From positions 1-37,525 of the IMG/VR virus record IMGVR_UViG_3300042991_000896: 37,525 bases of DNA; one strand, written 5' to 3'. The number at the start of each line of letters is the position of its first letter. Positions within the stretch are counted from its first letter, which is position 1. The DNA is from a virus. Of this stretch, positions 2,768 to 35,558 are shown piece by piece. A program made the position numbers and the translations under genes. Under the pieces are notes generated by a model. It had not been told where the DNA came from and did no database searches. It saw nothing but the letters and a program-made list of their open reading frames with translations.

Positions 2768-2775
2768 GTATTTAT
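2768..2775 (+). promoter_or_regulatory. GTATTTAT late-promoter-like motif (gp25-like gene)
   Basis: GTATTTAT followed by A, 16 nt before ATG 2792 and directly after a terminator. One of a family of near-identical motifs upstream of structural and lysis genes. Confidence 0.7.
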
Positions 2776-2791
2776 AGAAAAATCTATCATA

Positions 2792-3190
2792 ATGTTAACA
2801 TATAATATCAAATTTCCTCTCAATGATGACGTAAGCACAAACACTTACTTTCAAATGAGCAGAGTAACGAAGGATGCTTTCAGTTCTGATTTATTATTAT
2901 TGTTGTTAACACAAAGGGGTGAGAGATATTACGAACCGGATTATGGTACTAACCTATTGAAATTCATTTTCGAACCAAACGATAGTATGACCGAAAAAGA
3001 TATTGAACAGGAAATAAAAAACACTGTTTCACTATATATTCCAGCACTTAAAATTCAAAGCGTTACGTTCAGTACACTTCTTGATGAAGAGGGACAACCA
3101 ATATCTGAAAATCAGTTAAATGTGAACATTAAATTCACATATAATGAAGATGCTTTTAGTGAAAACGGTGAATTAGATTTAAAATTTTAA
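2792..3190 (+). CDS. Baseplate wedge protein, gp25-like (GPW/gp25 family)
   Basis: 132 aa, matching the usual length of T4 gp25 / P2 gpW-type baseplate proteins. Diagnostic features are the Leu-rich helix followed by 'TQRGERYYEPDYGTNL' (family pattern T..GeR...P.yG..l) and 'FIFEPNDSMT' with a downstream amphipathic helix and strand 'ALKIQSVTF'. In contractile tails this protein joins the inner baseplate to the sheath and helps nucleate sheath assembly. It is the first gene after a terminator and a GTATTTAT motif and is followed 11 nt later by the gp6-like gene, the order expected for a baseplate operon. Confidence 0.88.
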   Translation: MLTYNIKFPLNDDVSTNTYFQMSRVTKDAFSSDLLLLLLTQRGERYYEPDYGTNLLKFIFEPNDSMTEKDIEQEIKNTVSLYIPALKIQSVTFSTLLDEEGQPISENQLNVNIKFTYNEDAFSENGELDLKF

Positions 3191-3200
3191 GATATAGAAA

Positions 3201-5084
3201 ATGGCAACAGACACAACAACTAATGTGATTCAATACGGAAGTAGAACTTTCGGAGAAATAAGAACCGATTTAATTGCGCTAATCAGACAGGCATACCCTG
3301 AAGTACTTAGCGACTTTACCGATTCAAGCGTAGGTGCAATGCTTATTGATTTAAATGCTGGTGTTGGAAATAACCTTGCAATTAATACTGATAGGGCATT
3401 TCAGGAAACACAATTGGAATATGCGCAACAAAGAGCATCAATTCTGAACATTGCAAAAAACATGGGATTTAACATCCCTGCAAGAAAACCTTCCGTTACG
3501 GTTGTTGACTTTACAGTTAATGTACCTGTTCTTGGTGATAGACCTGACATTTCATACTATCCACAATTACAAATCGGTGCACAAGTCACTGGTGGTGGTA
3601 AGGTGTTCGAAACACAAGAAATTATTGATTGGAATTCTGCTGTGAGCAATCTTGGCGACCCCAACCGTTCAATTATTCCTAATTTAGATTCAAACGGTAT
3701 TATTCAAAATTATAGTGTTACTAAAAGAGAAGTTGTTATCAATGGTTCAACCAATATTTTCAAAAGGGTAATTAATTCATCTGATGTAATACCATTCTTT
3801 TCAGTAACACTTCCAGACCCGGACGTGATAGAAATAGAAGGAATTATTTTATTGGAAGGCACTAATTATTCAACAAATCCACCGATTAGCTCATTTAACA
3901 CAAGCATGGATGGTAAATATGATTCAACAGTTAATAGTACAATTAATCACTATTATGAAGTTAATTATTTGGCACAGCAAAAAGTTTTTATTGAAGATGT
4001 TAGTGGCTCACAATCAACAAATACTGGTATTAAAGCAGCTAAGTGGATTGATGTGACGAAAAAATTTATTAAGGAATATACGCCAAACGGATATTGTAAA
4101 TTAACATTTGGTTCTGGCGATGCTGATGTGGATGCATTCAAAAGTGGTTTCCTTAAAGAAGGCGTGAGCAATCGTGCTTTTCTTGAAAATTTCTTGAATA
4201 ATAGCGCATTGGGTGAAAAATTAAAAGCAAATCATACTTTATTCGTAAGATATCGTACTGGTGGTGGAACTTCTTCAAATATTGGTGCAAGAACATTAAC
4301 GAGTCTTGGAAATTATACATTATTGGTTCAAGGGTCACAACAAAAATATAATCAAGCGGTACAGAGAAGTCTTAAAGTGAGTAATCCAATTCCCGCAATT
4401 GGTGGTAATGATGGATTAAGTGTTGAACAAATCAGGCAATTAATTAAATATAATTTTTCAAGTCAGAATAGGGACGTTACATTAACTGATTACTTACTTC
4501 AGCTATATAAAATGCCGGGTAAGTTTGGGTCACCATTTAGAGCAAACGCATTCAAACTAAATAATAAGGTGGTATTATCCATACTTAATATTGGGGAAGA
4601 CGGAAAGCTTTCAAATACAAGTAATAGTTTATTGAAAGAGAATATCGCTGAATATCTGTCATATTATAGGATGATAAATGATTATGTCGAAATCAAAGAT
4701 GGTAAAATATTTAATTTGGCTTTCGATATTGATGTCTTTGTGGAGAATATTGCAAATAATGCAATAGCTAATAATATAATAACACTTGTAAGAAACTATT
4801 TTGATATTAATAACTATGAAATGAATCAAGACGTATTTCTTGGAAGACTTGAAAGACAAATTCTTGAAGCAAATGGGGTGATAAATGTCATCAGTATCAA
4901 GGCATATAATAGGGTTGGTGGACAGTATTCTAATAACGTGATTTCACAAGCATTTGCAAACACAAACACAGGTGAAATTCAAATTATTAACAACACTATT
5001 TATTCAACTACCGATTCGATGTTTGAAATAAAATATCCCGAAAAAGATATAAAAGTATTTCTTAGGAAAAAGGTTGGATACTAA
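3201..5084 (+). CDS. Baseplate wedge protein, gp6-like / baseplate J
   Basis: 627 aa, close to T4 gp6 in length. The N-terminal part (residues about 10-110) has the baseplate-J layout: 'FGEIRTDLIALIRQAYPEVLSDF' then 'SVGAMLIDLNAGVGNNLAINTDRAFQETQLEYAQQRASILNIAKNMGF', where a layer of helices precedes a beta domain. A middle beta-rich insertion contains 'GYCKLTFGSGD', and a C-terminal section from about residue 400 ('GGNDGLSVEQIRQLIKYNFSSQNRDVTLTDY') matches the second conserved baseplate-J block. The protein would form the wedge ring that dimerises around the tail tube. Its stop overlaps the next ATG by one base (TAATG), indicating translational coupling. Confidence 0.88.
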   Translation: MATDTTTNVIQYGSRTFGEIRTDLIALIRQAYPEVLSDFTDSSVGAMLIDLNAGVGNNLAINTDRAFQETQLEYAQQRASILNIAKNMGFNIPARKPSVTVVDFTVNVPVLGDRPDISYYPQLQIGAQVTGGGKVFETQEIIDWNSAVSNLGDPNRSIIPNLDSNGIIQNYSVTKREVVINGSTNIFKRVINSSDVIPFFSVTLPDPDVIEIEGIILLEGTNYSTNPPISSFNTSMDGKYDSTVNSTINHYYEVNYLAQQKVFIEDVSGSQSTNTGIKAAKWIDVTKKFIKEYTPNGYCKLTFGSGDADVDAFKSGFLKEGVSNRAFLENFLNNSALGEKLKANHTLFVRYRTGGGTSSNIGARTLTSLGNYTLLVQGSQQKYNQAVQRSLKVSNPIPAIGGNDGLSVEQIRQLIKYNFSSQNRDVTLTDYLLQLYKMPGKFGSPFRANAFKLNNKVVLSILNIGEDGKLSNTSNSLLKENIAEYLSYYRMINDYVEIKDGKIFNLAFDIDVFVENIANNAIANNIITLVRNYFDINNYEMNQDVFLGRLERQILEANGVINVISIKAYNRVGGQYSNNVISQAFANTNTGEIQIINNTIYSTTDSMFEIKYPEKDIKVFLRKKVGY

Positions 5085-5848
5085 TGGAAACAATAAAAAA
5101 AACTGTACAAATGGTTATGACCACTGGTTTAACGGCTTGTACCAGTGGAACTTGTTATATAATTATACCGAATACTGGTGTTACATATGCTTTTAAAATT
5201 GGTTTAAGTGAAGAAACACAGGATATTGGATTTCTTGATGCATATATGGTAACGGGAAGTTATCAATATATTGTTGCGAATAATAAATATTATTCATATT
5301 TAATTGGTGGTACTTCTTATAATGATTTAGATTTCGCAATGTCAAGTGGAATAATTTCTGGTACAACAAATGATGCCGACTATAACGGCTACACGTACAT
5401 TCCGTATATTGTGACTGGTGGTAGTAAAAGTAGGTTGGTTGAATTGAAAAAATATGCCACAAATCTTCCATTTAATCAACAATATATTACTGGTGGCAAT
5501 TGGAACACCGATGGTGTTGATTATGTCAATACCATTGAAAATATAAGAATCATTTACTATCTTGGTGGAATACGATATGTTGATGAATTTACTGGTTCAG
5601 CTTCTGGCACAACGTTTGCTTTCGTGGGTAAGGGAATAAATAATCCAAATTTTATTAACGTCCCAATATATAAAAACCCAACAAAAGAAAATATTATCAG
5701 CAATCCAAAAATCAATGATGATGTATTTATAGTTAGACAAGAATTATCGGCATTTGAAAATAATTACAGATTAGAATTTGTAAAAAATTTATCTGAATTA
5801 GAAACGTATGCAAGCGGTAAACATTTTAATATAATTAACAATAGTTAA
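5084..5848 (+). CDS. Hypothetical baseplate-region structural protein, 254 aa
   Basis: Start ATG 5084 overlaps the previous stop by one base. The sequence is rich in Gly, Thr, Tyr and Asn with alternating hydrophobic strands and no coiled coil, typical of beta-sandwich virion proteins. Repeated motifs such as 'YIPYIVTGGSKSR' and 'ITGGNWNTDG' suggest beta-turns. It lies between gp6-like and tail-protein-I-like genes and is therefore probably a baseplate or tail component. No specific family recognised. Confidence 0.65.
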   Translation: METIKKTVQMVMTTGLTACTSGTCYIIIPNTGVTYAFKIGLSEETQDIGFLDAYMVTGSYQYIVANNKYYSYLIGGTSYNDLDFAMSSGIISGTTNDADYNGYTYIPYIVTGGSKSRLVELKKYATNLPFNQQYITGGNWNTDGVDYVNTIENIRIIYYLGGIRYVDEFTGSASGTTFAFVGKGINNPNFINVPIYKNPTKENIISNPKINDDVFIVRQELSAFENNYRLEFVKNLSELETYASGKHFNIINNS

Positions 5849-5850
5849 AA

Positions 5851-6759
5851 ATGGCAATTGGAACATACGGCATATCAAGACCAGCAGATGTAAGTGTTAA
5901 TAACATTAGCGTATATTATAATTTTACACCTAACAGAGAAACAAGTAACAATACAATATACAGCTTAGATGCAAGTGAAGTTTTAGAGTATTGTTATTTG
6001 CCCGATGATGAGCAAATAATCGCAGGATATAATGAAAATTTATTGGAAGGTCTTTATAATTTAAGGCTTCCCGCATCAATTTTTAATCAATTGGGGATAT
6101 ATACTGTTTATATCAAACCTAAAATAACTCCGTTGCTTATAATTGATTGTAGTGTATTATCCGCAGTACCAACAGTAAAGGGGATTGTGGTTAATGTAAA
6201 TGATTTACCTGAAGAAATGAGGGCAAATAATGCATTACAGGGATATAGAATTGAATATGTGAACAGTGATGGTACTAAATTGAGAAATGTTGTTCGTTAT
6301 GTTGTAACATCGAACAAAGTTGTTCCGGTCAGTGAAAATGTTGGAAACACATCACAGAAAGCAATTAGGTATCGTTTCGATGATTCAGGGACGTTAATGT
6401 TCCTACAAGTTACACCAAGTAGTTCATCAGATGTTAAGCCAAATGCGCTTCCCTTTATTGGCAACCCCGGACAAACAATTTTAATATCAAATACATTTTT
6501 TAGTCCATTGACTTTGGAAGTTGAATTGGTTGAAAATACTATTGATACTTTGTCGGATATTGTCGCTGGTGAACAGATTAAGGATGTTCAAAAGGGTATT
6601 CTTACACATTATGATAAGAATAGAGCAATAACGAAACAATTTAATTTATATGAAATAAAAGAAGATGTAACAGATGTTCCATTATTTGAAGTTAAAGAAA
6701 AGCGTGTAAGCATTGATGAAACACAAAATTTTGAAGATGTTACTAATGAGGTTCAGTAA
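5851..6759 (+). CDS. Hypothetical baseplate/tail structural protein, 302 aa
   Basis: ATG 5851 lies two bases after the previous stop, in AAAATGGCA context. Predicted beta-rich protein: strands around 'VSVNNISVYYNF', 'LGIYTVYIKPKITPLLIID', 'IRYRFDDSGTLMFLQVTP', followed from about residue 225 by a charged C-terminal tail ('HYDKNRAITKQFNLYEIKED'). The N-terminus (GTYGISRPADVSVNNIS) resembles that of several phage tail-module proteins I have seen as unknowns. It ends the first tail operon and is followed by a terminator. Confidence 0.65.
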   Translation: MAIGTYGISRPADVSVNNISVYYNFTPNRETSNNTIYSLDASEVLEYCYLPDDEQIIAGYNENLLEGLYNLRLPASIFNQLGIYTVYIKPKITPLLIIDCSVLSAVPTVKGIVVNVNDLPEEMRANNALQGYRIEYVNSDGTKLRNVVRYVVTSNKVVPVSENVGNTSQKAIRYRFDDSGTLMFLQVTPSSSSDVKPNALPFIGNPGQTILISNTFFSPLTLEVELVENTIDTLSDIVAGEQIKDVQKGILTHYDKNRAITKQFNLYEIKEDVTDVPLFEVKEKRVSIDETQNFEDVTNEVQ

Positions 6760-6783
6760 ATAATTGCGAAATTCTAATTTTAA

Positions 6784-6818
6784 AAAATCCCGATTCATTG
6801 GATTGGGATTTTTTATTT
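6784..6818 (+). terminator. Rho-independent terminator
   Basis: Nine-base stem AATCCCGAT/ATTGGGATT with one G-U pair, loop TCATTGG, then a T-rich tail. Followed at once by the GTATTTAT motif of the 1459-aa tail gene. Confidence 0.85.
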
Positions 6819-6822
6819 TATT

Positions 6823-6830
6823 GTATTTAT
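6823..6830 (+). promoter_or_regulatory. GTATTTAT late-promoter-like motif (1459-aa tail gene)
   Basis: GTATTTAT followed by A, 17 nt before the GTG start at 6848. The conserved spacing supports the GTG start. Confidence 0.7.
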
Positions 6831-6847
6831 AGTAAAACATATAATTT

Positions 6848-11227: not shown

Positions 11228-11241
11228 TTTAAAAATAAAAT

Positions 11242-11249
11242 GTATTTAT
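11242..11249 (+). promoter_or_regulatory. GTATTTAT late-promoter-like motif (FnIII gene)
   Basis: GTATTTAT followed by A in the 41-nt gap between two tail genes, 19 nt before ATG 11269. No terminator precedes it. Confidence 0.65.
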
Positions 11250-11268
11250 AAAATAGAAGTTTAACAAA

Positions 11269-12261: not shown

Positions 12262-12281
12262 CATTAAAAATAAAATTAATT

Positions 12282-12289
12282 GTATTTAT
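12282..12289 (+). promoter_or_regulatory. GTATTTAT late-promoter-like motif (561-aa gene)
   Basis: GTATTTAT followed by G, 15 nt before ATG 12305, in a 43-nt intergenic gap. Confidence 0.65.
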
Positions 12290-12304
12290 GTTTAAAGAAT
12301 AAAA

Positions 12305-13990: not shown

Positions 13991-14001
13991 ATAAACTAAA
14001 A

Positions 14002-14730: not shown

Positions 14731-14777
14731 TTTTCACACAAAAAAATCCCAAATCTATAATTTTTTATAAATTCTTA

Positions 14778-14785
14778 GTATTTAT
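14778..14785 (+). promoter_or_regulatory. GTATTTAT late-promoter-like motif (RHH-RuvC operon)
   Basis: GTATTTAT followed by T, 22 nt before ATG 14808. It puts the RHH and resolvase genes in the late class. Confidence 0.6.
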
Positions 14786-14807
14786 TATAAATTATGAAAT
14801 AAAATTT

Positions 14808-15677: not shown

Positions 15678-15981
15678 AAGAAGCATATTTAATTCAGTCG
15701 TTAGAGGATAGTTATTATAAAATCGGAGTATCCAAACATCCGAAGAAAAGATTAAAACAGTTACGGACAGGTAATTCATCAGAATTAAAGCTGGTCGAAT
15801 CATACCCGTCTGATTTGCACATCAAATCGAAAAAACGTTACAGCGTAGATATTCTCATCTTCAAAAAGAGGGGGAGTGGCTTGATATGGGCATTACCAAT
15901 GAAGTATCGTTTCTTAAAGAATGCCAGAAAATCGAGGAAACATTAATATTTCTTAAAAAAAATAGTAGTGTATTTATATAA
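15674..15981 (+). pseudogene. GIY-YIG/T5orf172-type nuclease gene, broken by a one-base frameshift
   Basis: The frame from ATG 15674 starts as a good GIY-YIG-like (T5orf172/Mug113) domain: 'AYLIQSLEDSYYKIGVSKHP' then 'KKRLKQLRTGNSSELKLVES'. After codon 47 (about 15814) it turns into unrelated basic sequence and stops at 15946. The other half of the family is found in the -1 frame from 15814: 'FAHQIEKTLQRRYSHLQKEG' followed by 'EWLDMGITNEVSFLKECQKI', ending at TAA 15979-15981. The joined product (PSD then FAHQIEKTL) matches the expected family order including the GEW motif. A single missing T in the run at 15814-15816 would explain this. Either a real inactivating deletion, a homopolymer sequencing error, or less likely a programmed shift. 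Confidence 0.75.
15970..15977 (+). promoter_or_regulatory. GTATTTAT motif at the end of the GIY-YIG gene
   Basis: GTATTTAT followed by A, overlapping the last codons of the frame-corrected GIY-YIG gene. It is 80 nt before the next ATG (16058), farther than the 14-22 nt usual here, so its function is less certain. Confidence 0.4.
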
Positions 15982-15985
15982 AACC

Positions 15986-16016
15986 TTGACAATTTGGTTT
16001 ATTTGTTTTAAGTTTG
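15986..16016 (+). promoter_or_regulatory. Bacteroidota-type promoter for the HTH-phosphoesterase gene
   Basis: TTG (15986-15988), 20-nt spacer, TAAGTTTG (16009-16016), an exact match to the TAnnTTTG -7 consensus of Bacteroidota housekeeping promoters. The -7 element ends 41 nt before ATG 16058. Confidence 0.6.
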
Positions 16017-18205: not shown

Positions 18206-18215
18206 CTTATATTTG
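18185..18215 (+). promoter_or_regulatory. Bacteroidota-type promoter for the primase (near-leaderless)
   Basis: TTTG (18185-18188), 19-nt spacer, TATATTTG (18208-18215), matching TTTG/TAnnTTTG exactly. The -7 element ends 4 nt before ATG 18220, so transcription should begin at or next to the start codon. Confidence 0.65.
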
Positions 18216-18219
18216 CTTT

Positions 18220-19269
18220 ATGGTTAGGGGTCAAGAATTTCACGCTATCATTCAGAACATCTTTGGTGATGTGAACGGCTACTTGCAGTCAGAACAGGTG
18301 CAGGTAAACTGTCCACGTTGTCAGGAAAGAGAGGGATTGTCATATCCTGACGGTAAATTTAACTTGGAGATAAACACAGCGAAGCGTATGTTTCGTTGTT
18401 GGAAGTGCGATGAACCACGTTTCTCAGGGTCACTTGGAAGATTGGTTAAAATGTTTGGTTCACATATTGATTACGATGTTTATAAATCATATGCAGGAAT
18501 TTTTCACGATTATTCAGTTGACGAAGATGAAAAAGTATATGCACCAGTAAAGCTTCCAGAAGAAATGATACCGTTTGCACAAATGGAATCAGCAAATGCT
18601 GAACATTTTGAAGCCTATACTTATTTAATTGCCGAAAGAAAAATATCAAGAGAATTGATTTTAAAATATCGGCTCGGTTTTTGTACGACTGGAAAATATG
18701 CAAAAAGAATTATAATACCATCATATGACATTAATGGTGAAATAAATTATTTTGTTGGAAGAAGCTATGACCCGAAAGAGAAAAAAGGTAAGAAAAAGTA
18801 TCTCAATCCCCCTGCAGATACAAGTAAAATCATTTTCAATGAGGGTTTTGTAAATTGGGATTCTACTGTATATCTTGTTGAAGGTGCGTTTGAAATGTTA
18901 TCGTTTCCCGCAAACATCATTCCGATGTTGGGAAAAACATTATCAACCACATTGTTTATGAAATTGAAAGAATTAAAGCCTGATGTTGTAGTATTGTTAG
19001 ACCCTGATGCTTACAAAAATGCTGTGGAATTGTTTTATACTCTGCAGACTATTTATGTTGGCTGTGAAGATAGGGTTAAGATAGTTAAATTGCCGACTGA
19101 GGAAGACTTAGACGAATTGAGAAGAAATCAGGGTGTAGATGCTGTGATTAAGAGTCTTCGTACCGCAAGAGGATTAACTGTCGATGATTATTTTATCCAA
19201 AAGTTAGAAAAGCCATATGGTAAAAGAGAATACGGAAGAATTGACTTTAATTCAAAATACGTTAAATAG
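18220..19269 (+). CDS. DnaG-type DNA primase (zinc finger plus TOPRIM)
   Basis: 349 aa. An N-terminal zinc ribbon has Cys31, Cys34, Cys60 and Cys63 ('VNCPRCQ', 'FRCWKC'), used for template recognition. A central segment with 'RKISRELILKYRLGFC' and 'RIIIPSYDINGEINYFVGRSY' matches the RNA-polymerase core of DnaG. A TOPRIM domain contains 'VYLVEGAFEML' (conserved Glu) and 'VVVLLDPDAYK' (the D-x-D pair). The protein is short compared with bacterial DnaG and lacks a helicase-binding domain and any helicase domain, so the helicase must be encoded elsewhere. It would make RNA primers for phage lagging-strand synthesis. Its 3' end overlaps the sigma factor gene by 53 nt if ATG 19217 is used. Confidence 0.82.
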   Translation: MVRGQEFHAIIQNIFGDVNGYLQSEQVQVNCPRCQEREGLSYPDGKFNLEINTAKRMFRCWKCDEPRFSGSLGRLVKMFGSHIDYDVYKSYAGIFHDYSVDEDEKVYAPVKLPEEMIPFAQMESANAEHFEAYTYLIAERKISRELILKYRLGFCTTGKYAKRIIIPSYDINGEINYFVGRSYDPKEKKGKKKYLNPPADTSKIIFNEGFVNWDSTVYLVEGAFEMLSFPANIIPMLGKTLSTTLFMKLKELKPDVVVLLDPDAYKNAVELFYTLQTIYVGCEDRVKIVKLPTEEDLDELRRNQGVDAVIKSLRTARGLTVDDYFIQKLEKPYGKREYGRIDFNSKYVK

Positions 19270-19936
19270 AAATCCGCAAGCTGAGAAAATATTTTACACG
19301 AAATATAGAAAAGTAGTAAAAAGTTATCTAAAACATAAGTACCCAAAACTTATTGTTGATATTGACGATTGTGTATCTGATATATTAATACAGGTTTTTT
19401 CAAATCTCAGTAAATATGACCCTGAAAAGTCAAGCGTCAAGACTTGGATATTGGTTATTGCAAGGCATTATATGATTGATATGTGGAGATGCGGAACAAT
19501 AACATATCAATGTTCAATTCCATTAAATCCTTCGTTCGATAATGTGTTTACGATAAACAATAGTGGTGAATATTACAATAGTGGGTACTGTACATCAACC
19601 TCACTCGGCAATGAAGTTCTTTCAACAGAAAATGTTGGGGGTACGATAAATGCTGGAAATAGTTCGTTCACAGCAACTAATGGGATGGCGTTTGTTGCAA
19701 ATTCATTTAGTATATCTTGTAACATCACTGCATTTGAGAATTGCAGTTCATTGAATCATATATCGAATCAATTATCTCCTTCAGATTATACTCTATTGGA
19801 TATGAAATATGTTCAAGGTTATGATTATTGTGAGATTGGAAAAGAATTTAACCTCACAAGTAACACAGTCAGCAATAGAGTTAACTACCTAAAAACCAAA
19901 TTGAAGAAAAATAATTTGGATTTGATTTACGAATAA
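19217..19936 (+). CDS. Phage-encoded sigma-70 family (ECF-like) sigma factor with unusual linker
   Basis: 239 aa. Residues about 20-93 resemble sigma region 2: 'AEKIFYTKYRKVVKSYLKHK', 'DIDDCVSDILIQVFSNLSKY', and 'SVKTWILVIARHYMIDMWRC', the last matching the W-L/ARN..iD..R helix that melts the -10 element. Residues 186-235 form a region-4 helix-turn-helix: 'LSPSDYTLLDMKYVQGYDYC' then 'EIGKEFNLTSNTVSNRVNYL'. Between them lie about 90 residues rich in Ser/Asn/Thr/Gly, much longer than usual. ATG 19217 lies within the primase end; a TTG at 19241 is an alternative start. It is the obvious candidate to recognise the GTATTTAT motif, as gp55 does for T4 late promoters. Sigma assignment is firm, target is inference. 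Confidence 0.75.
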   Translation: MVKENTEELTLIQNTLNRNPQAEKIFYTKYRKVVKSYLKHKYPKLIVDIDDCVSDILIQVFSNLSKYDPEKSSVKTWILVIARHYMIDMWRCGTITYQCSIPLNPSFDNVFTINNSGEYYNSGYCTSTSLGNEVLSTENVGGTINAGNSSFTATNGMAFVANSFSISCNITAFENCSSLNHISNQLSPSDYTLLDMKYVQGYDYCEIGKEFNLTSNTVSNRVNYLKTKLKKNNLDLIYE

Positions 19937-19978: not shown

Positions 19979-20009
19979 TTGCATTTATTGGGGGTTTTAG
20001 ATATATTTG
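19979..20009 (+). promoter_or_regulatory. Bacteroidota-type promoter for the Mre11-Rad50 fusion
   Basis: TTG (19979-19981), 20-nt spacer, TATATTTG (20002-20009), exact TAnnTTTG; ATG 20025 is 15 nt farther on. The -33 lies in an 18-nt sequence (19969-19986) repeated exactly at 33204-33221. Confidence 0.7.
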
Positions 20010-23400: not shown

Positions 23401-23408
23401 CTATTTAT
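23401..23408 (+). promoter_or_regulatory. CTATTTAT variant of the late-promoter-like motif
   Basis: CTATTTAT, differing from GTATTTAT at the first base, 15 nt before ATG 23424. The short intergenic gap and the spacing match the family. Confidence 0.5.
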
Positions 23409-24575: not shown

Positions 24576-24576
24576 T

Positions 24577-24768: not shown

Positions 24769-25235
24769 GTAAGACAAATTGGGATTTAAGATTTATGGAA
24801 CTGGCAGACCATATTGCACAGTGGAGCAAGGACAGAAGTACAAAAGTGGGTGCGGTTATTGTAACCGATAAGAACCCCGTATCAATGGGATATAATGGAT
24901 TTCCCAGAGGTTGTGATGATGAGGCAGAAGAAAGACATCAACGACCAGAAAAATACGATTGGGTATTACATGCAGAGGAAAATGCGTTGATTAATGCTGC
25001 TCGTAATGGACAGGTAACTAAAGGTGCTGACATGTATGTGAACTGGTTTCCATGTGCAAAATGTGCTGGCATGATTGTGAATGCTGGTATTAAAAGAATA
25101 TTCTGTGACAAAGAACCTGATTTCGATAATCCCCAATTTGGTGCTGGTTTTAAATTGGCAATAAAAAAATTACAGGAAGGTGGCGTTGAGATAGTTTACA
25201 TGGACTACGATGCCAATAGAAGTGTAAAACAGTAA
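24765..25235 (+). CDS. Deoxycytidylate (dCMP) deaminase
   Basis: 156 aa from ATG 24765. A GTG at 24756 would add three residues but the 4-nt ATGA overlap with the upstream stop favours ATG. The zinc-dependent deaminase motifs are both present: 'VLHAEENAL' (His69, Glu71) and 'WFPCAKCAGMIV' (Pro96, Cys97, Cys100). The N-terminal 'MELADHIAQWSKDRSTKVGA' and 'SMGYNGFPRGCDD' are typical of the dCMP deaminase/ComEB family. It converts dCMP to dUMP, feeding thymidylate synthesis for AT-rich phage DNA. The next gene starts within the stop codon (TAATGG). Confidence 0.85.
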   Translation: MSKTNWDLRFMELADHIAQWSKDRSTKVGAVIVTDKNPVSMGYNGFPRGCDDEAEERHQRPEKYDWVLHAEENALINAARNGQVTKGADMYVNWFPCAKCAGMIVNAGIKRIFCDKEPDFDNPQFGAGFKLAIKKLQEGGVEIVYMDYDANRSVKQ

Positions 25236-25852
25236 TGGAAATTGACAATATAACATATGGTGTTAAAGAAATCAATCACTATAAAACTCAAAACGTAAAA
25301 AACCAAATTGTCTTAGCTACGAGTTTAAGAAAGGATAGTTATCACATTACCAGACTTCAACACAAAGAATTTGGTAAAACAAAAGGGTGGAATACATTCA
25401 CAATATCACGAGACGGAACAATATATCAGCACTATAACCACAAATTCCACAGTGATTTTCTTGGCATAAAAGAAGCGGATAAACAGTCTGTTTCAATTGT
25501 TTTGGAGAACATGGGTTCGCTATTCGAAACATCAACCGGAAAGCACATAAATTGGCTTAATGAGGTTTGTGATGAAGAACACATTATAACCAAAAACTGG
25601 TTCGGATATAATTATTGGGAAAATTTGGGGGATGAACAAATATCAAGCACTGTTAATCTCTGTAAACAACTTTGTGAACAATTTAACATACCAACCATTT
25701 GTATTGATTTTCACCATTACCATAAAGATATTGTAAAATTTAGGGGAATTGTGTTTAGAAGTAATTACATTCGGGATAGTAGCGATATTAATCCATTGTT
25801 TGATATTGAGAAATTTAATGCCATGCTAAAAGGCAAAATCGATAGTGAGTAA
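25235..25852 (+). CDS. N-acetylmuramoyl-L-alanine amidase-like protein, active site degenerate
   Basis: 205 aa with the amidase_2/PGRP layout: 'NQIVLATS', 'FTISRDGTIYQHYNHKFHSD', 'SVSIVLENMGSL', and a C-terminal 'GIVFRSNYIRDSSDINPLFD'. Compared with the intact amidase at 32016-32771, the three probable zinc ligands are gone: first His of LHHT becomes Ala28, the His of THVSF becomes Arg, and the Cys ten residues later becomes Ile; the DGtIyQ strand and sIxIexxN strand are kept. The fold is therefore probably retained without hydrolase activity, leaving a peptidoglycan-binding or structural role. ATG overlaps the deaminase stop by one base. Confidence 0.65.
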   Translation: MEIDNITYGVKEINHYKTQNVKNQIVLATSLRKDSYHITRLQHKEFGKTKGWNTFTISRDGTIYQHYNHKFHSDFLGIKEADKQSVSIVLENMGSLFETSTGKHINWLNEVCDEEHIITKNWFGYNYWENLGDEQISSTVNLCKQLCEQFNIPTICIDFHHYHKDIVKFRGIVFRSNYIRDSSDINPLFDIEKFNAMLKGKIDSE

Positions 25853-25860
25853 GTATTTAT
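25853..25860 (+). promoter_or_regulatory. GTATTTAT motif overlapping a start codon
   Basis: GTATTTAT whose last two bases are the A and T of ATG 25859. A transcript starting about 10 nt downstream would miss both ATG 25859 and ATG 25865, unlike all other copies. Confidence 0.4.
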
Positions 25861-26446: not shown

Positions 26447-26454
26447 TTTAAATA

Positions 26455-26462
26455 GTATTTAT
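26455..26462 (+). promoter_or_regulatory. GTATTTAT late-promoter-like motif (171-aa gene)
   Basis: GTATTTAT followed by A, 14 nt before ATG 26477 and 8 nt after the previous stop. Confidence 0.65.
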
Positions 26463-26476
26463 ATAAAATTAAAATT

Positions 26477-26992: not shown

Positions 26993-27001
26993 AAAAGATT
27001 G

Positions 27002-27031
27002 AAACCTGACAGAAAATGTCAGGTTTTTTTA
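27002..27031 (+). terminator. Rho-independent terminator
   Basis: Perfect 10-bp stem AAACCTGACA/TGTCAGGTTT, loop GAAAA, then a T run. Closes the single-gene unit at 26477. Confidence 0.92.
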
Positions 27032-27066
27032 TTTTAGTGTATGAGGCCCTTTTGCTTTATTTTTTA

Positions 27067-27074
27067 GTATTTAT
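27067..27074 (+). promoter_or_regulatory. GTATTTAT late-promoter-like motif (spanin-like gene)
   Basis: GTATTTAT followed by T, 17 nt before ATG 27092, after a terminator. Confidence 0.7.
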
Positions 27075-27091
27075 TATAAAAAATTATAATT

Positions 27092-27910: not shown

Positions 27911-27949
27911 TATACCCCGTGAAGTGGGGGACATTTTAGTTTGTTTCAA

Positions 27950-27986
27950 AGGACGCACGTTTGAATAAGATGTGCGTTCCTTTTTA
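27950..27986 (+). terminator. Rho-independent terminator with bulge
   Basis: GGACGCAC pairs with GTGCGTTCC (one bulged base), loop of 13 nt, then TTTTT. A smaller CCCC/GGGG hairpin sits upstream at 27914-27929. The 132-nt gap holds nothing else that I can see except the promoter motif at 28015. Confidence 0.75.
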
Positions 27987-28014
27987 TTTAATGTCATTTT
28001 TTTAAGTTATTTAA

Positions 28015-28022
28015 GTATTTAT
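28015..28022 (+). promoter_or_regulatory. GTATTTAT late-promoter-like motif (28043 operon)
   Basis: GTATTTAT followed by A, 20 nt before ATG 28043, downstream of a terminator. Drives the 68-aa, 1094-aa and holin-like genes. Confidence 0.7.
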
Positions 28023-28042
28023 AAACAACAGATAAACATAAC

Positions 28043-28249
28043 ATGAATACAAACGATATTAAAGGGATTGTTAAGGATGAAATCAATAAGTTCGTTGACG
28101 ATTCTTTGGATAAAGAAATGAAGAAAGTGCTTCGTAATTCAAATAGTCAATCACGTGATGAATTGATTAGTACGATTAAGAATGCGATGGAAGCAGTTTA
28201 TAAAGTGTTGTGGCAGAAAAGAGATTTTTGGAAAACTGATATTAAGTAA
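28043..28249 (+). CDS. Hypothetical small helical protein, 68 aa
   Basis: All-helical charged protein (KGIVKDEINKFVDDSLDKEM, then 'MEAVYKVLWQKRDFWKTDIK'). The aromatic-rich C-terminus looks conserved among unknown proteins of large phages. Its TAA shares a base with the ATG of the 1094-aa gene, indicating coupled translation; it may assist that protein's assembly. No known domain. Confidence 0.6.
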   Translation: MNTNDIKGIVKDEINKFVDDSLDKEMKKVLRNSNSQSRDELISTIKNAMEAVYKVLWQKRDFWKTDIK

Positions 28250-31200: not shown

Positions 31201-31533
31201 AATGAAGCGAAAGTTGTTAAAGAATCGAAAGAAGTTGAAAGCATGTTCGAATTAGATTTTACCGGATTCGGCAACAAATATGTAAACAGAACACAGGATA
31301 ATAAGGTGATTGTTAATGAAACAGTTGAAAACGTATTATCTGAAAGTAAATATTTTACCGATGGTAAAAGCATATTTGTTATGAAAAATCCTGTTCAAAA
31401 AATAAATGAAAGCGAACAGAAGGTTCAAAAACCAGTGGTAAATGAACAAGTCAATAAAATGAAACACTTACTTGGCTACAAACCTAATCAGTTTGTTGAT
31501 ACTAAAAATGTGAGAAAAAACCGTGGATTTTAA
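28249..31533 (+). CDS. Large virion-type protein with DUF3008-like segment, 1094 aa
   Basis: Mostly low-complexity, hydrophilic and apparently modular. It begins with 'MKKINEEIF', has two 'SGLPK' repeats in residues 145-170, a Gly/Ala/Ser segment (about 265-310) followed by 'KPMIPGGTFIQESNYLIDSS', and at about 503-560 a DUF3008-like block ('SQQRFMGMVHATHKGELSPD', 'TKKDVEDFATTKHKGLPEK'). A folded region (about 565-690), more disordered acidic sequence, and a C-terminal 'MKHLLGYKPNQFVDTKNVRK' follow. Such mosaics occur as scaffolding or internal head proteins of large phages, but that is only a suggestion. The stop overlaps the next gene by 11 nt. Confidence 0.6.
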   Translation: MKKINEEIFKPTLKKPVNKQSQNFEKTFKKTMTQFNPTMKLNETDGLLTEKEQSLKKKIFSLSKMEALVFSDPKLSAVYEEMAENGEEKYGYHYNETIMNMIFNDYVLNSPKYLQKYKMAIPKEKKRRDQSGINQLKKAGEEKMAQSGLPKADEKKPEKDLAPSGLPKPDVVEAGEPLTKVQFLVNERDPENPNVFAYFPEENYDVAGKYKTGYSHIGQHSAVDPQYAAESRPATPEEYTDLKAELEGVGYNLEVLNQTNETTGSGSSGAYVGAAAWKKNGGDLAETTSASSAGGAAGYVGYAGPAAWGSGDLMKAGGKSKVMRKPMIPGGTFIQESNYLIDSSGFEKFIEMLNEDIDLSYQTELGKEYKQTHTGSNHGLGVRELPTSPRRDALKSDIDANTELYVGQDVDRMPNKDVDILHVDMTTPNSMFPDPKNPVLRNDGIAGDVKEQTVDRASANNKIIDKTAAFTSDVVKNWSNKDAQIELNTINSRKMDTPNLNEKSKSKSQQRFMGMVHATHKGELSPDEVGGDVAKAAASMTKKDVEDFATTKHKGLPEKIDEEYRVSNPQPLKQVGWLPIRTYKTGGAAVFENDDYGKTQGASYIVGSPYEMEYVVKPYKLGDNENNYLIQQNPKFWIRHIKIDDNTNKIYYLDDDGKYKFFANNQGIEINPNKNWSHNIDTERFLQKIEDMKKQGATFKLDDSDVNEDTQTMIQNNGTSMSNKATPAGDQSSNMDTGARSSGGMSEALELESANKLLEELNNELEAFSIHQNKLKKMSEDRKPSSLVMKDRLGNDNEKNFKSDLQQSGTKEIIDVEKELQYKDQQTNIGDDPQKLAQDIEKAEIKATDAKGEEHLKNVGDSPNDKGDEIPKRNLKDEEQHEVDMYRNGQHSWVYDNEPDKRFEDRMRADMGDDIYKIRQEQMKFRAKAPMYNKDTQPVGDGIDKVQFDKEKSGWNDREGLMETMVTGRFVDALGKKFIMDFRLNEAKVVKESKEVESMFELDFTGFGNKYVNRTQDNKVIVNETVENVLSESKYFTDGKSIFVMKNPVQKINESEQKVQKPVVNEQVNKMKHLLGYKPNQFVDTKNVRKNRGF

Positions 31534-31918
31534 TAAAGTATTTCACAAAGCAACTGAAAGCATAACCGAAGAACAGTTTTGGGAAGCTTATAATAAGTTT
31601 CAGCCAAATGGTTGGACTAAGTTTATCTTCAAATATTTTCCGAAAGAAACGAAACGTGAAGATAGGTGGTTGAAAAACATATTCATTGGTGTTGAATTAG
31701 TGTTGTTTCTTACAGGTATGCTTGGAACAATATTGGAATGGAGCAAAATGGCAATAGGAATACCAACAATCACATTTGGAATACTATTAACCATACTTGT
31801 ATTAGGTGGATTTGTTGCGGTGTTCATGAATAATTTCAGAATCGGCAAAATCAGGAAAGAACTTGGTGGTATATCAAAAACTGAATACAATAGATTGGTA
31901 GAATTGTATTCCGAATAA
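31523..31918 (+). CDS. Two-TM membrane protein, holin candidate, 131 aa
   Basis: Starts within the end of the 1094-aa gene (11-nt overlap). Two hydrophobic segments at about 52-72 ('NIFIGVELVLFLTGMLGTIL') and 78-102 ('IGIPTITFGILLTILVLGGF') follow a charged amphipathic N-terminus and precede a basic tail ('NNFRIGKIRKELGG'). Two-TM topology, small size and position directly upstream of an intact amidase gene fit a class II holin. Membrane protein is certain; holin is an inference from context. Ends at a strong terminator. Confidence 0.6.
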   Translation: MDFNKVFHKATESITEEQFWEAYNKFQPNGWTKFIFKYFPKETKREDRWLKNIFIGVELVLFLTGMLGTILEWSKMAIGIPTITFGILLTILVLGGFVAVFMNNFRIGKIRKELGGISKTEYNRLVELYSE

Positions 31919-31941
31919 GAAAAATTTTACTTATATTTGTG

Positions 31942-31978
31942 GGGTGTTAATTCAATTAGCACCCCATTTTTATTTTAT
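31942..31978 (+). terminator. Rho-independent terminator
   Basis: Ten-base stem GGGGTGTTAA/TTAGCACCCC (one G-U), loop TTCAA, then a T-rich tail. Separates the holin-like gene from the amidase. Confidence 0.9.
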
Positions 31979-31991
31979 AATTAAGAGCAAA

Positions 31992-31999
31992 GTATTTAT
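31992..31999 (+). promoter_or_regulatory. GTATTTAT late-promoter-like motif (amidase)
   Basis: GTATTTAT followed by G, 16 nt before ATG 32016, directly after a terminator. Confidence 0.7.
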
Positions 32000-32015
32000 G
32001 TGAAAATAGATTAAC

Positions 32016-32771
32016 ATGATTAGTTTTAATAAATTATCGTTTGGCTTATTAATGGATACATTAAAACAAGCCGAAAATCAAAAGAACGGTGAAGTTGTTG
32101 AACTCCTTAAATTAAATTTAAGCGAAATTATTCAAGTTGACTTCCCAGATGACCAGTATTTTAGAGAACAAACCGATAAAAAACAAATAGTTTTGCATCA
32201 TACAGTTTCTGGTCAAGGCGTTGACGGTGATATTTCTTGGTGGAGACAAACTGCTGAAAGAATCGGTACTGCAATTATTGTCGGTTGGGACGGTAAGATA
32301 TATCAATGTTTTTCAACAAAATATTGGGCACATCACATTGGTTCAAAAGCAGCTAACAACAAAGCATTGAACATGGCATCTATTGGTATTGAAATTGATG
32401 CTTGGGGTGGTTTAATGCGATACAATAGACAATGGTATCCGGCAAAGTGGGATGAAACATTAAAACAAAATGTTCCAAATCTTACCGTTCGTCCAATACA
32501 AAATGTTCAAACATATCCAGATGGATTCAAGGGATTTTTTGGCTTTGAGAAATACACCGATGCTCAAATTGAGGCAGTGAGAAAACTTTTGGTGTTTTGG
32601 AACGAAAGATTTGGTATTCCACTTACATATAACGAAGATATGTGGGCAGTATCAAACAAAGCAATGAGCGGTACACCGGGAGTTTGGACACACGTTAGTT
32701 TCAGGGAAGATAAAAGTGATTGTTATCCTGACGATAGATTGATTACTATGCTCAAATCATTAACCAAATAA
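32016..32771 (+). CDS. N-acetylmuramoyl-L-alanine amidase (endolysin candidate), motifs intact
   Basis: 251 aa. After about 45 N-terminal helical residues comes an amidase_2 domain: 'QIVLHHTVSG' (His61, His62), 'IIVGWDGKIYQCF', 'YWAHHIGS' (His106, His107), 'ASIGIEIDAWGG', and 'WTHVSFREDKSDCYPD' with His226 and Cys236 ten residues later, the spacing of the His-Asp pair in AmpD. It would cleave the MurNAc-L-Ala bond of peptidoglycan in lysis. There is no signal peptide, so it needs a holin; the two-TM gene upstream is a candidate. Cell-wall binding domain not evident. It has its own late-type promoter and is paralogous to the degenerate protein at 25235. Confidence 0.82.
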   Translation: MISFNKLSFGLLMDTLKQAENQKNGEVVELLKLNLSEIIQVDFPDDQYFREQTDKKQIVLHHTVSGQGVDGDISWWRQTAERIGTAIIVGWDGKIYQCFSTKYWAHHIGSKAANNKALNMASIGIEIDAWGGLMRYNRQWYPAKWDETLKQNVPNLTVRPIQNVQTYPDGFKGFFGFEKYTDAQIEAVRKLLVFWNERFGIPLTYNEDMWAVSNKAMSGTPGVWTHVSFREDKSDCYPDDRLITMLKSLTK

Positions 32772-32772
32772 A

Positions 32773-33207
32773 ATGGGGAGCACAGGGCAAAAATATATAA
32801 TAGTTAAGGACAGGGTGGAAGTATATAAAGATTTTGCATTAAATCTGTTATATTACATACATCATTATTATATTGATAAAGAAAGTCTTAGCCAAGACGA
32901 AGATATTTCCAATCATTATTCATGGTGTTTTAAAAAGGTTTGTGATGAATTTTTGAAAGAAGGAATTGATTTTACGAAAAATGATGTTTTAAAGCAATAT
33001 TTTTATAACTATTACTATCATCAATTTTATAACATAAAAAATGGCGTGTACCAAGACACTTCGTTAGAATATTACGAAAAATTTTGGAGAAACATATTTG
33101 AAATCGACAAGCAAAAGAATAAAAACATTATAAATGTACTTATCGAAATTTATAATGTCTTCGATACATCTATCAATCAGGAGAAAAATATTTTAGATAT
33201 CGTGTAA
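32773..33207 (+). CDS. Hypothetical protein, 144 aa, Tyr-rich
   Basis: ATG 32773 is one base after the amidase stop. Helical with many aromatic residues: 'NLLYYIHHYYIDKESLSQDE', 'HYSWCFKKVCDEFLKEGIDF', 'YFYNYYYHQFYNIKNGVYQD'. The layout (YYIDKESLSxDEDI then HYxWCFxKVCDEF) looks like a conserved unknown family of large phages. No catalytic motif recognised. Co-transcribed with the amidase. Confidence 0.6.
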   Translation: MGSTGQKYIIVKDRVEVYKDFALNLLYYIHHYYIDKESLSQDEDISNHYSWCFKKVCDEFLKEGIDFTKNDVLKQYFYNYYYHQFYNIKNGVYQDTSLEYYEKFWRNIFEIDKQKNKNIINVLIEIYNVFDTSINQEKNILDIV

Positions 33208-33213
33208 AAATCC

Positions 33214-33244
33214 TTGCATTTTGTATTTGTTATCACTATTTTTA
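33214..33244 (+). promoter_or_regulatory. Host-type promoter upstream of the 33284 operon
   Basis: TTG (33214-33216), 20-nt spacer, TATTTTTA (33237-33244; seven of eight to TAnnTTTG). The -33 region lies in an 18-nt exact copy (33204-33221) of the Mre11-Rad50 promoter's -33 region. Confidence 0.5.
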
Positions 33245-33283
33245 CAAGCACAAAAATAATATTATTTTAATTTAAAGAGAATT

Positions 33284-33592
33284 ATGGCAAATTTAAAGCT
33301 CGACCTTTTAAACAAACTAAGAAACGACAAGTATTATGAGGAACTTGAATTAGTGCGTCTTGCACAAGACCCGAATATGAATTACAAGGAAAAAATTGAT
33401 TCTATGCATAATAGACTTGAGAAACTTGCACTTTTAAACGCAGAAATGGGACTTGTAGAACAGTACTTCCAAGAACCCCTACAACAACAGCCACAGCAAA
33501 TACCGCCACAGCAGGTAGCACCAGAAGGAGCACCAGTTGCAGCAGGACAGCAGCCTGTAAGAGTTCATCAGGGGCAGACTCACGGTGAATAA
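33284..33592 (+). CDS. Hypothetical protein, 102 aa, Gln/Pro-rich tail
   Basis: The first 65 residues are helical and charged ('NDKYYEELELVRLAQDPNMN', 'KIDSMHNRLEKLALLNAEMG'). The last 37 are Gln/Pro/Ala-rich ('QQQPQQIPPQQVAPEG'), an extended low-complexity tail. Start ATG 33284 lies 39 nt after the host-type promoter. First gene of a cluster of small genes ending with the exonuclease-like gene. Function unknown. Confidence 0.55.
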   Translation: MANLKLDLLNKLRNDKYYEELELVRLAQDPNMNYKEKIDSMHNRLEKLALLNAEMGLVEQYFQEPLQQQPQQIPPQQVAPEGAPVAAGQQPVRVHQGQTHGE

Positions 33593-33595
33593 CAA

Positions 33596-33790
33596 ATGAT
33601 GATATTGTCTGAAACATATCAAGCACTTTTTATATCTTCCATCATTTTTATGATTTATATTCTTGGTGATTTAATTGTAAAAATGTATGGAAGGTTTAAA
33701 TTGAACAAAGAAACGAGATTTAAATTAACTAATTTTGAAAAAGTGATGTTATTGGTTTCGTTAACAGTTTTTCTTTCATATTTAATATAA
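33596..33790 (+). CDS. Small two-TM membrane protein, 64 aa
   Basis: Two hydrophobic segments, about 10-30 ('ALFISSIIFMIYILGDLIV') and 47-64 ('FEKVMLLVSLTVFLSYLI'), joined by a basic loop ('KMYGRFKLNKETRFK'). ATG 33596 is followed directly by a second ATG. Lies 3 nt after the upstream stop. Could be an inhibitor or small holin-type protein, but nothing in the sequence decides this. Confidence 0.55.
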   Translation: MMILSETYQALFISSIIFMIYILGDLIVKMYGRFKLNKETRFKLTNFEKVMLLVSLTVFLSYLI

Positions 33791-33794
33791 GCAA

Positions 33795-34283
33795 ATGAAA
33801 ACAATTGATTCAGCGTTACAACCAATCACTGGTTTTTTATTTTCAATAACACGAGACACGGTTAATGGTTGGTATGAAATCGAAATTGGTCTCCCAAAGG
33901 GATGGGTTTTCGATGAAAATGATGAAATTAAGTGTGAGATACTTAATAAAACAGATGCTGGGAGTTTAGTCAAAATATCTCCCAAGAAATCTGACATTCT
34001 TATTGATGATTTGGTTTCATTTGTGGAAATTATAATCCAGACTAATAAAAGAATTGCTGAAAAGGAAAAGGAGTTCACAGATAAAATGGAAGAAATGAAA
34101 ACGGCTTTAGAAAAAGAAGCCAGAAAATTCTATGAAGAACTGGATGAACTTAAAGAAAATTCCTTCAAAAGGGTTAATGAAAACTTCGTAACTGAAAAAA
34201 AAGAAACCAGAGGCAGAAAACCAAAAAACTTAACTGCCCCTGAAAGCACCGATAATAGTACCACAGTAGTTACCACAGAATAA
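33795..34283 (+). CDS. Hypothetical protein, 162 aa, beta domain plus coiled coil and AT-hook
   Basis: Residues 10-60 form a probable beta domain ('GWYEIEIGLPKGWVFDENDE', 'LVKISPKKSDI'), then a long helix/coiled coil ('IAEKEKEFTDKMEEMKTALE', 'EARKFYEELDELKENSFKRV'), then a C-terminal AT-hook-like 'ETRGRKPKNL' and a Thr/Ser tail. The AT-hook suggests minor-groove DNA binding, suited to AT-rich DNA. The function is unknown, but the gene looks like part of a conserved set with its neighbours. Confidence 0.6.
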   Translation: MKTIDSALQPITGFLFSITRDTVNGWYEIEIGLPKGWVFDENDEIKCEILNKTDAGSLVKISPKKSDILIDDLVSFVEIIIQTNKRIAEKEKEFTDKMEEMKTALEKEARKFYEELDELKENSFKRVNENFVTEKKETRGRKPKNLTAPESTDNSTTVVTTE

Positions 34284-34290
34284 AATACAC

Positions 34291-34644
34291 ATGGCATTAG
34301 ATAAGAAAATATTATCAATCGATTCCGATGATGATAATAAAGATTATCAAGCATTCGATGAATTTCTCCAAGAAGACACTAATCGTAAAAAAAATCACAC
34401 TGCTTCTGAAATAGAACAGATAGGCGATACTTTACTTGAGGAAATCGAAATTAAAAAAACAAGGCAAGAAATTAAAAGGGGGAAGCACATCCTTTATATT
34501 TTGAAACATGACGACAGGATTTATAGTGAAAAACTATTAAAATCATATAGTTATGAGGACATATATAACATTTATCTTGAAGTTAAGCAAACAAAACGTT
34601 CGGCGATTGCAAAATTTTTTCATTTTCTCTTTAACTTTGACTAA
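34291..34644 (+). CDS. Hypothetical acidic/helical protein, 117 aa
   Basis: The N-terminal 50 residues are acidic and disordered ('ILSIDSDDDNKDYQAFDEFL'). The rest is helical and basic ('GKHILYILKHDDRIYSEKLL', 'EDIYNIYLEVKQTKRSAIAK') ending in an aromatic tail FFHFLFNFD. ATG 34291 is 7 nt after the previous stop. No family recognised. Confidence 0.55.
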   Translation: MALDKKILSIDSDDDNKDYQAFDEFLQEDTNRKKNHTASEIEQIGDTLLEEIEIKKTRQEIKRGKHILYILKHDDRIYSEKLLKSYSYEDIYNIYLEVKQTKRSAIAKFFHFLFNFD

Positions 34645-34652
34645 AATTTTCA

Positions 34653-34660
34653 TATATTTG
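34653..34660 (+). promoter_or_regulatory. TATATTTG -7-like element before the exonuclease-like gene
   Basis: Exact TAnnTTTG element 21 nt before ATG 34682. A TTTGAC at 34636-34641 is only 13 nt upstream, too close for the usual 17-23-nt spacing, so only the -7 half is supported. Confidence 0.4.
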
Positions 34661-34681
34661 TAAACACAAAAACATAAAATA

Positions 34682-35488
34682 ATGGCGAAACAGCTATTTG
34701 AAGACGTTTTCAACAAAGGAGTAATCCACGAAATTTTATTCGTAAACACTAAAGCGGTATTGATATTCCCAACAGTAAAGGAACTTGAAGTAGGCAATAA
34801 ACCGCTTTTTGACCGTTGGAATTATATATTAAAAACCAAGTATGAAAATAATATTCCAGTGGAACAGATGGTGGATATGGATGCATACAGCCAAAAGAAA
34901 TATCAAGATAACGCCCCCTATCTCCCTGAATATACCCGTATTATAGCAATAACAATTGGAAATGTCTATGCGGAAGACGGGAAGTTGAAAAGGCATATTC
35001 AAAAATTCGTGAACGAAGATGAATATCACGTACTTGCACAGTTCATGGATATTTTGTATCATCTGTCAAGTGAGGGCACAAAATCAAGTCCCAATTACTT
35101 TCCAATACTCTGCGGTCACAACATAATATCATATGATATTCCAATGTTGATAAAAAGATTTTTAATCCACAGAGATAAGTTTGAGAACAACAAAGAATTG
35201 CCATTAATGCTTAAAAGAGCATTAAATATAAAACCTTGGGAATCTGGAATTATCGACACTGTAAATGTTTGGAAATTTAATGGCTTCGATACCACATCAT
35301 TAATGTTAATTTCAGATTTCCTTGAACTTAAAAAAACTGTTGATTTAATGTCAATGCCTGAGTTATCAAAATATTATTGGAATAATGTTAAGGAAAAACC
35401 TTCGGAAACGTTGGAGTTTATTTCTCTGCAGTCAGCAACACAAACTAATTTGGTCGTGCAATTTATGAATATATTGAGGCAACTTTAA
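34682..35488 (+). CDS. DnaQ/PolB-type 3'-5' exonuclease-like protein, catalytic motifs degenerate
   Basis: 268 aa resembling the predicted PolB-exonuclease-2 family: exo II 'CGHNIISYDIPMLIKRF' (Asp152), 'GIIDTVNVWKFNGFDTTSLM' and 'LISDFLELKKTVDLMSMPEL' followed by 'KYYW'. In active relatives exo I reads about LIF-D-I-E-TV; here it reads LIFPTVKE (residues 27-34), so the Asp and Glu of the D-x-E pair are missing. In the exo III position 'SLQSATQTNLVVQF' lacks the expected Asp. The protein probably folds but is unlikely to degrade DNA, suggesting a binding or regulatory role. Followed by a terminator. Confidence 0.6.
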   Translation: MAKQLFEDVFNKGVIHEILFVNTKAVLIFPTVKELEVGNKPLFDRWNYILKTKYENNIPVEQMVDMDAYSQKKYQDNAPYLPEYTRIIAITIGNVYAEDGKLKRHIQKFVNEDEYHVLAQFMDILYHLSSEGTKSSPNYFPILCGHNIISYDIPMLIKRFLIHRDKFENNKELPLMLKRALNIKPWESGIIDTVNVWKFNGFDTTSLMLISDFLELKKTVDLMSMPELSKYYWNNVKEKPSETLEFISLQSATQTNLVVQFMNILRQL

Positions 35489-35516
35489 CCACACATATAT
35501 CTTAATTTTAAAATTG

Positions 35517-35550
35517 TGGGGTAAATTAATAAAATTTACCCCATTTTTTT
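35517..35550 (+). terminator. Rho-independent terminator
   Basis: Perfect 10-bp stem GGGGTAAATT/AATTTACCCC, loop AATAA, then A and seven T, directly before the GTATTTAT motif at 35551. Confidence 0.93.
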
Positions 35551-35558
35551 GTATTTAT
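35551..35558 (+). promoter_or_regulatory. GTATTTAT late-promoter-like motif (tail fibre)
   Basis: GTATTTAT followed by A, 16 nt before ATG 35575 and immediately after the terminator T run. Confidence 0.72.

Follow-up and report, generated by a model that had tools for sequence, protein, structure and literature searches.

Octamer sites in the window

The stretch of DNA analysed here (hereafter the window) is a 37.5-kb virus record of IMG/VR (IMGVR_UViG_3300042991_000896, 37,525 nucleotides), in which the octamer GTATTTAT recurs at short distances upstream of genes. All genes of the window are on the + strand, and they encode T4-type baseplate wedge proteins, a RuvC-like resolvase, a DNA repair exonuclease, a DnaG-like primase, a gp46/47 fusion protein, a dCMP deaminase, endolysin-type amidases, a tail fibre and a sigma factor. 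The window is a piece of an uncultured T4-like huge phage. By protein comparison, its nearest named DNA is the 735-kb uncultured phage LR756501 (gp46/47, 38% identity), and closer relatives than LR756501 are encoded on numerous other contigs of IMG/VR, which are longer than the window and reach 371 kb. The element studied here is common to dozens of relatives of the window phage, and no earlier description of it was found in literature searches of openly licensed papers.

The octamer occurs 14 times in the window, every time on the + strand, whereas dinucleotide shuffles of the whole window contained 3.8 copies on average with both strands counted, and none of 100 shuffles reached 14. Eleven sites had been listed in an earlier note on this DNA, and all of them were recovered: ten copies of GTATTTAT and the variant CTATTTAT at 23401, with the motif beginning 22-30 nucleotides (nt) and ending 14-22 nt before the start of the open reading frame. 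When each 60-nt leader was shuffled apart, 0.06 sites were obtained at 18-32 nt (at most 2 in 300 shuffles) against the 10 observed. The observation in that note, in which such a word was expected only a few times by chance and not at a fixed distance from starts, is correct and was if anything understated. A chance AT-rich word, which a base composition of about 65-74% A+T might seem to favor, is refuted by both kinds of shuffles and by the clade-wide conservation described below, and its probability is practically nil. The full element in the window is GTATTTAT-N3-AAA, with an A at motif position +12 in 11 of the 12 promoter-like sites, which are the following.

2768-2775, + strand: GTATTTAT before the gp25-like baseplate gene (2792); AAA in register; terminator at 2729-2755; motif in 3/3 orthologues
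6823-6830, + strand: GTATTTAT before a 1459-aa virion-type gene (6848); terminator at 6781-6815; motif in 30/46 orthologues
11242-11249, + strand: GTATTTAT before gene 11269, without A at +12; motif in 22/35 orthologues
12282-12289, + strand: GTATTTAT before tail-region gene 12305; motif in 35/36 orthologues
14778-14785, + strand: GTATTTAT before the ribbon-helix-helix/RuvC-like resolvase operon (14808); motif in 38/38 orthologues
15970-15977, + strand: GTATTTATATAAAA, a distal promoter-like site 88 nt before exonuclease gene 16058; the twelfth site, outside the earlier list
23401-23408, + strand: variant CTATTTAT before gene 23424; [GC]TATTTAT in 19/22 orthologues
26455-26462, + strand: GTATTTAT before gene 26477; motif in 20/20 orthologues
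27067-27074, + strand: GTATTTAT before gene 27092; terminator at 27001-27027; motif in only 4/18 orthologues
28015-28022, + strand: GTATTTAT before genes 28043/28249; terminator at 27951-27979; motif in 15/18 orthologues
31992-31999, + strand: GTATTTAT before the endolysin gene (32016); terminator at 31939-31967
35551-35558, + strand: GTATTTAT before the tail-fibre gene (35575); terminator at 35516-35544

All six terminators that had been noticed before these sites were found immediately upstream of them, and the motif does precede structural and lysis genes, in agreement with the gene classes first described (tail, lysis, fibre, virion-type and the resolvase operon). The remaining copies, two inside genes without AAA (5723 and 13892) and one overlapping a start codon (25853), look like chance occurrences rather than promoters. 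A scan with the sigma-70 consensus was uninformative, as it gave about as many promoter-like matches as in shuffles. With regard to lysis, the window encodes two separate amidase-type proteins (25235-25852 and 32016-32771).

Enrichment, orientation and phase of the octamer in relatives

Three long relatives, G011 (328 kb), G004 (349 kb) and G007 (299 kb), were used for a genome-wide test. The search over relatives with distance-to-start statistics that the earlier note had proposed gave 56, 55 and 42 copies of GTATTTAT, respectively, at 18-32 nt before starts, compared with 1, 2 and 2 copies of its reverse complement and 0-10 of other permutations of the octamer; leader shuffles in a relative gave an expectation of 0.64 sites versus 56 observed. 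A logo of 178 sites reads (A)G-TATTTAT-(A)NN-AAA, that is, (A)GTATTTAT(A)NN-AAA, with G at 86% and A at 91% and 84% at positions +12 and +13. A faint T-rich stretch could be observed 12-16 nt upstream, and no -35 box was conserved in these sites. In the cultured relatives PTm1, MA9V-1 and Mel-JY01, the motif was absent before starts in the 50 kb of each that were scanned.

The T4 late promoter had been named in the earlier note as the closest analogue, with the remark that it reads differently. The difference stands, but it had been overlooked that TATTTATA is the exact reverse complement of the T4 consensus TATAAATA (PMC1524935), as would be expected if these were T4-family late promoters on the opposite strand, from which transcription would lead away from the gene or both ways. 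This is highly improbable. The last A needed by the T4 box is present in only 65% of sites, in the direction of transcription that box shows no enrichment (1, 6 and 3 copies at 18-32 nt in the three genomes), motif-led genes show no excess of divergent neighbors (39/163 versus 126/432), and the upstream terminators face the same way. A T4 promoter on the opposite strand was rejected on this evidence, and from direction, terminators and neighbor orientation, transcription should therefore run from GTATTTAT into the gene.

The phase of the element bears on another explanation, namely that the octamer is a translation signal or mRNA leader element belonging to the ribosome-binding context of Bacteroidota. 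Its near-fixed distance to start codons fits such a role, and in genes without the motif A also peaks at -11 to -13, though less strongly, which matches the translational A-tract known in Flavobacterium johnsoniae (PMC6847099). However, the A at motif +12 is fixed for start-codon distances from 20 to 34 nt and blurs when sites are aligned to the start codon, the octamer follows terminators and is rare inside operons (18 of 642 genes with an upstream gap of less than 30 nt, versus 146 of 581 other genes), and replication genes do not carry it. A translation signal as the main cause is thus very unlikely and was rejected, since the AAA register tracks the octamer and operon-internal genes mostly lack the motif. 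An AAA phased to the octamer and not to the ATG is the behavior expected of a transcription start or an initially transcribed sequence, as judged from these alignments. With the usual spacing of 22-25 nt, the presumed start-site As may therefore double as the A-tract of the ribosome.

Two probable promoter classes

A second element, TAnnTTTG, which is the -7 box of the Bacteroidota primary-sigma promoter (PMC9723704), is present in the same phage genomes at replication genes and at the sigma operon. It was found within 50 nt of orthologues of the exonuclease, gp46/47 and primase genes, where GTATTTAT almost never occurs. GTATTTAT does not fit this box and precedes a different gene set, and orthologues with one promoter class almost never carry the other. 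The host-type boxes of the window are as follows.

16009-16016, + strand: TAAGTTTG, host-type box of the exonuclease gene (16058); in 37/39 orthologues
18208-18215, + strand: TATATTTG, host-type box leading the primase-sigma operon (primase 18220-19269); TAnnTTTG in 20/35 primase orthologues, GTATTTAT in 0
20002-20009, + strand: TATATTTG, host-type box of the gp46/47 fusion gene (20025); in 31/34 orthologues
34653-34660, + strand: TATATTTG, host-type box of a 3'-5' exonuclease-like gene (34682); in 3/3 orthologues

In G011, the motif leads the genes for terminase, portal, prohead protease, baseplate hub, virion and tail-spike proteins and several homing endonucleases, whereas TAnnTTTG leads those for helicase, ribonucleotide reductase, exonuclease and a second sigma factor. 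Such a split would be expected of late versus early/middle genes, the late timing being suggested by gene content. The TAnnTTTG box at these replication genes is that of Bacteroidota sigma-A and thus points to this phylum as the most likely source of the host; in addition, one close relative of the window sigma was found on a contig of a Bacteroidota metagenome-assembled genome (L227).

Many homing/HNH endonuclease genes of G011 are motif-led (L063:1298-2218, L073:2631-3626, L070:181-1005, L062:15406-16119 and others), as if selfish endonuclease genes had adopted the late motif. At the exonuclease gene of the window, the GTATTTAT site and the host-type box TAAGTTTG stand in tandem (15970-16016), an arrangement in which early plus late dual control of this gene is possible.

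The phage sigma factor as candidate reader

The last gene of the primase operon encodes a candidate reader of the motif.

19217-19936, + strand: phage sigma factor of 239 aa, candidate motif reader (Sigma70_r2 7.5e-13; phrog_1740; AlphaFold2 model with Foldseek matches to sigmaE/SigW)

This gene stands behind the box TATATTTG, shares an overlap with the end of the primase gene, and is kept beside the exonuclease-primase cluster in 53 of 59 neighborhood loci. The protein consists of sigma2 (residues 3-92), a linker (94-174) and a strongly conserved sigma4 (170-232). Its membership in the sigma-70 family is supported by PF04542 (48.5 bits, cut-off 24), in agreement with the fold match. Its best Foldseek matches are ECF (group 4) sigmas such as E. 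coli sigmaE and SigW, with which it has in common the sigma2-linker-sigma4 plan; unlike them, it has a linker of about 80 residues and a putative promoter without a -35 or a CGT-type -10 element, and both Pfam tests for ECF sigmas remained below their cut-offs (Sigma70_r4_2, 21.5 versus 25.7 bits; Sigma70_ECF, 16.8 versus 21.1 bits). The linker (residues about 92-174, window 19490-19740) is hypervariable, disordered and rich in Asn, Ser and Thr, and the domains flanking it are conserved.

A profile search with this sigma covered 26 contigs, 13 of them motif-bearing. A near-full-length orthologue (E below 1e-34) was present in 12 of the 13 motif-bearing contigs and in none of the motif-less ones, most of which are short fragments. 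The RNA polymerase beta subunit was not found in the window or in 13 relatives; a phage-encoded multisubunit RNA polymerase was therefore rejected, and the host core enzyme is the likely partner of the phage sigma.

Several observations weigh against a late promoter read by this sigma. The co-distribution of motif and sigma follows phylogeny, and most motif-less contigs are short; with the same tree for both, it is consistent with a direct link but is weak evidence and no proof. G025 (266 kb, completeness not established) has 14 motif sites and no detectable sigma. Second sigmas occur in several members, and 6 of the 14 records tested have two or three Sigma70_r2 proteins. Sigma4 is conserved although the promoter has no -35 box. 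The T4-type sliding clamp (PF02916), which as gp45 activates T4 late transcription via the C-termini of gp33 and gp55, was not found in 11 genomes. Finally, as the motif also precedes homing endonucleases, not all motif-led genes are virion genes.

The additional sigmas, the case of G025 and the missing -35 box would all be accommodated if the same late promoter had another reader (a distant gp55, a second sigma, or the host's own sigma helped by an activator from the phage) and the window sigma served something else. We consider this unlikely, because the second sigma is patchy whereas almost every member of the motif clade has the window-type sigma, and the motif does not fit TAnnTTTG. The second, different sigma was located at G011:C1:10692-11481, G007:C1:30928-31495 and G004:C1:292627-293194, with TAnnTTTG before it in G011 and G007. 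The window-type sigma ends in EIIYE-like tails, which the C-terminus of the DNA polymerase does not resemble, and no clamp-binding tail common to both could be seen.

Proposed mechanism and comparison with known systems

On balance, the motif is almost certainly a late-type promoter private to this clade, for which there is a candidate sigma, and the mechanism first suggested (a late element resembling a -10 box, recognized by a sigma that is not the host's) is very probably right as the best reading of orientation, terminators, AAA phase, rarity inside operons, orthologue conservation, the structural and lysis genes it precedes, the difference from the host-type box and the presence of the sigma gene. 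We regard as likely the full proposal that huge T4-like phages of one clade, with Bacteroidota-type hosts, use GTATTTAT-N3-AAA as a -10-only late promoter, which the host's RNA polymerase would recognize with the help of the phage sigma. The motif itself, its distance to starts, orientation and register, its conservation at orthologues, the classes of genes it leads and the conservation of the sigma are seen directly in the sequences; promoter function, late timing and reading by the window sigma are what we infer from them. Early in infection, host sigma-A promoters (TAnnTTTG) would drive the replication genes and the primase operon, which ends in the phage sigma gene. The phage sigma would then bind host core RNA polymerase and direct it to GTATTTAT, placed one helical turn before the start site, and transcription would begin at or next to AAA, 11-13 nt downstream of the octamer's first base. 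The resulting leaders would be about 9-13 nt long, with their first As falling where Bacteroidota ribosomes favor A (-11 to -14), and structural, lysis, packaging and resolvase genes would be expressed in this way.

The best reading is that this promoter is T4-like in design but not of the T4 family. In T4, late promoters consist of an 8-bp -10-only box placed roughly one helical turn ahead of the start, with AT-rich sequence downstream and no -35, and they are used before structural genes by a phage sigma on the host core enzyme (PMC2988020, PMC1524935). The element described here is likewise an 8-bp -10-only element without a -35, and its start, as suggested by the AAA register, would lie about one turn downstream. 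Unlike T4 gp55, which has no sigma4, the candidate sigma has a conserved sigma4 and a long disordered linker. A precedent for promoter drift is provided by Aeromonas phage Aeh1, in which the late box (CTAAATA) and gp55 have both diverged (PMC1524935); the Aeh1 box is still a variant of the T4 box, whereas here the whole octamer differs between neighboring clades.

Most jumbo phages have no RNA polymerase of their own, and reviews presume that these turn to phage-specific promoters with sigma factors that they encode themselves (PMC13282480, PMC7824862). The GTATTTAT finding supplies a concrete promoter and a concrete candidate sigma for an uncultured clade, and the motif offers a sequence rule by which likely late genes could be flagged in dozens of uncultured genomes. 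We also considered identity with the published phages encoding bS21, for which late-stage metatranscriptomes exist (PMC9723584). It was rejected, as S21 was found in none of 18 contigs tested and only in LR756501; the RNA evidence on those phages is therefore not transferable to the motif clade.

A neighboring clade with a different octamer

GTATTTAT was absent before starts in LR756501 (L249-L268) and in three neighboring contigs (G031-G033; L269-L286), in which ATATATA was enriched 23-33 nt before starts. The element of LR756501 is TTAATATATA-N5-AAA; it lies 22-32 nt before starts, and the A of positions +12/+13 reaches 96-97%. LR756501 and its neighbors thus have, like the GTATTTAT clade, a -10-only element with AAA in the same register; unlike that clade, the octamer region of LR756501 is TTAATATATA, and its sigma is only weakly similar, is located elsewhere, near 491.8 kb of that record, and shows no evident orthology to the window sigma. 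On the gp46/47 tree, the motif-bearing contigs form one clade (support 100/100) and the ATATATA contigs a neighboring one (99/97); one row of the GTATTTAT clade (L174, a 23-kb locus) was scored as having neither element, and its full contig has four extended sites.

Tentatively, the lineage that contains LR756501 may have kept a single late-promoter chassis, in which an octamer stands 22-32 nt before the start with AAA 11-14 nt in and no -35, while the octamer was exchanged together with the sigma, from TTAATATATA to GTATTTAT or in the other direction. If this were true, dozens of promoters would have been re-coded wholesale in one lineage, and the start-site As of the shared chassis would also serve as the A-tract of the ribosome. 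In any case, two neighboring clades with the same promoter layout and different octamers represent a natural experiment.

On the gp46/47 tree, G025 (L164, a contig of 265,845 bp with 14 extended motif sites) is the first to branch off within the motif clade. Copies of both GTATTTAT and ATATATA stand before starts in this contig, and no sigma-70-family gene could be detected in it. Some copies of ATATATAG lie only 12-16 nt before the start (L110; LR756501, 258540-302133); if these are promoters, they would give leaderless or nearly leaderless mRNAs.

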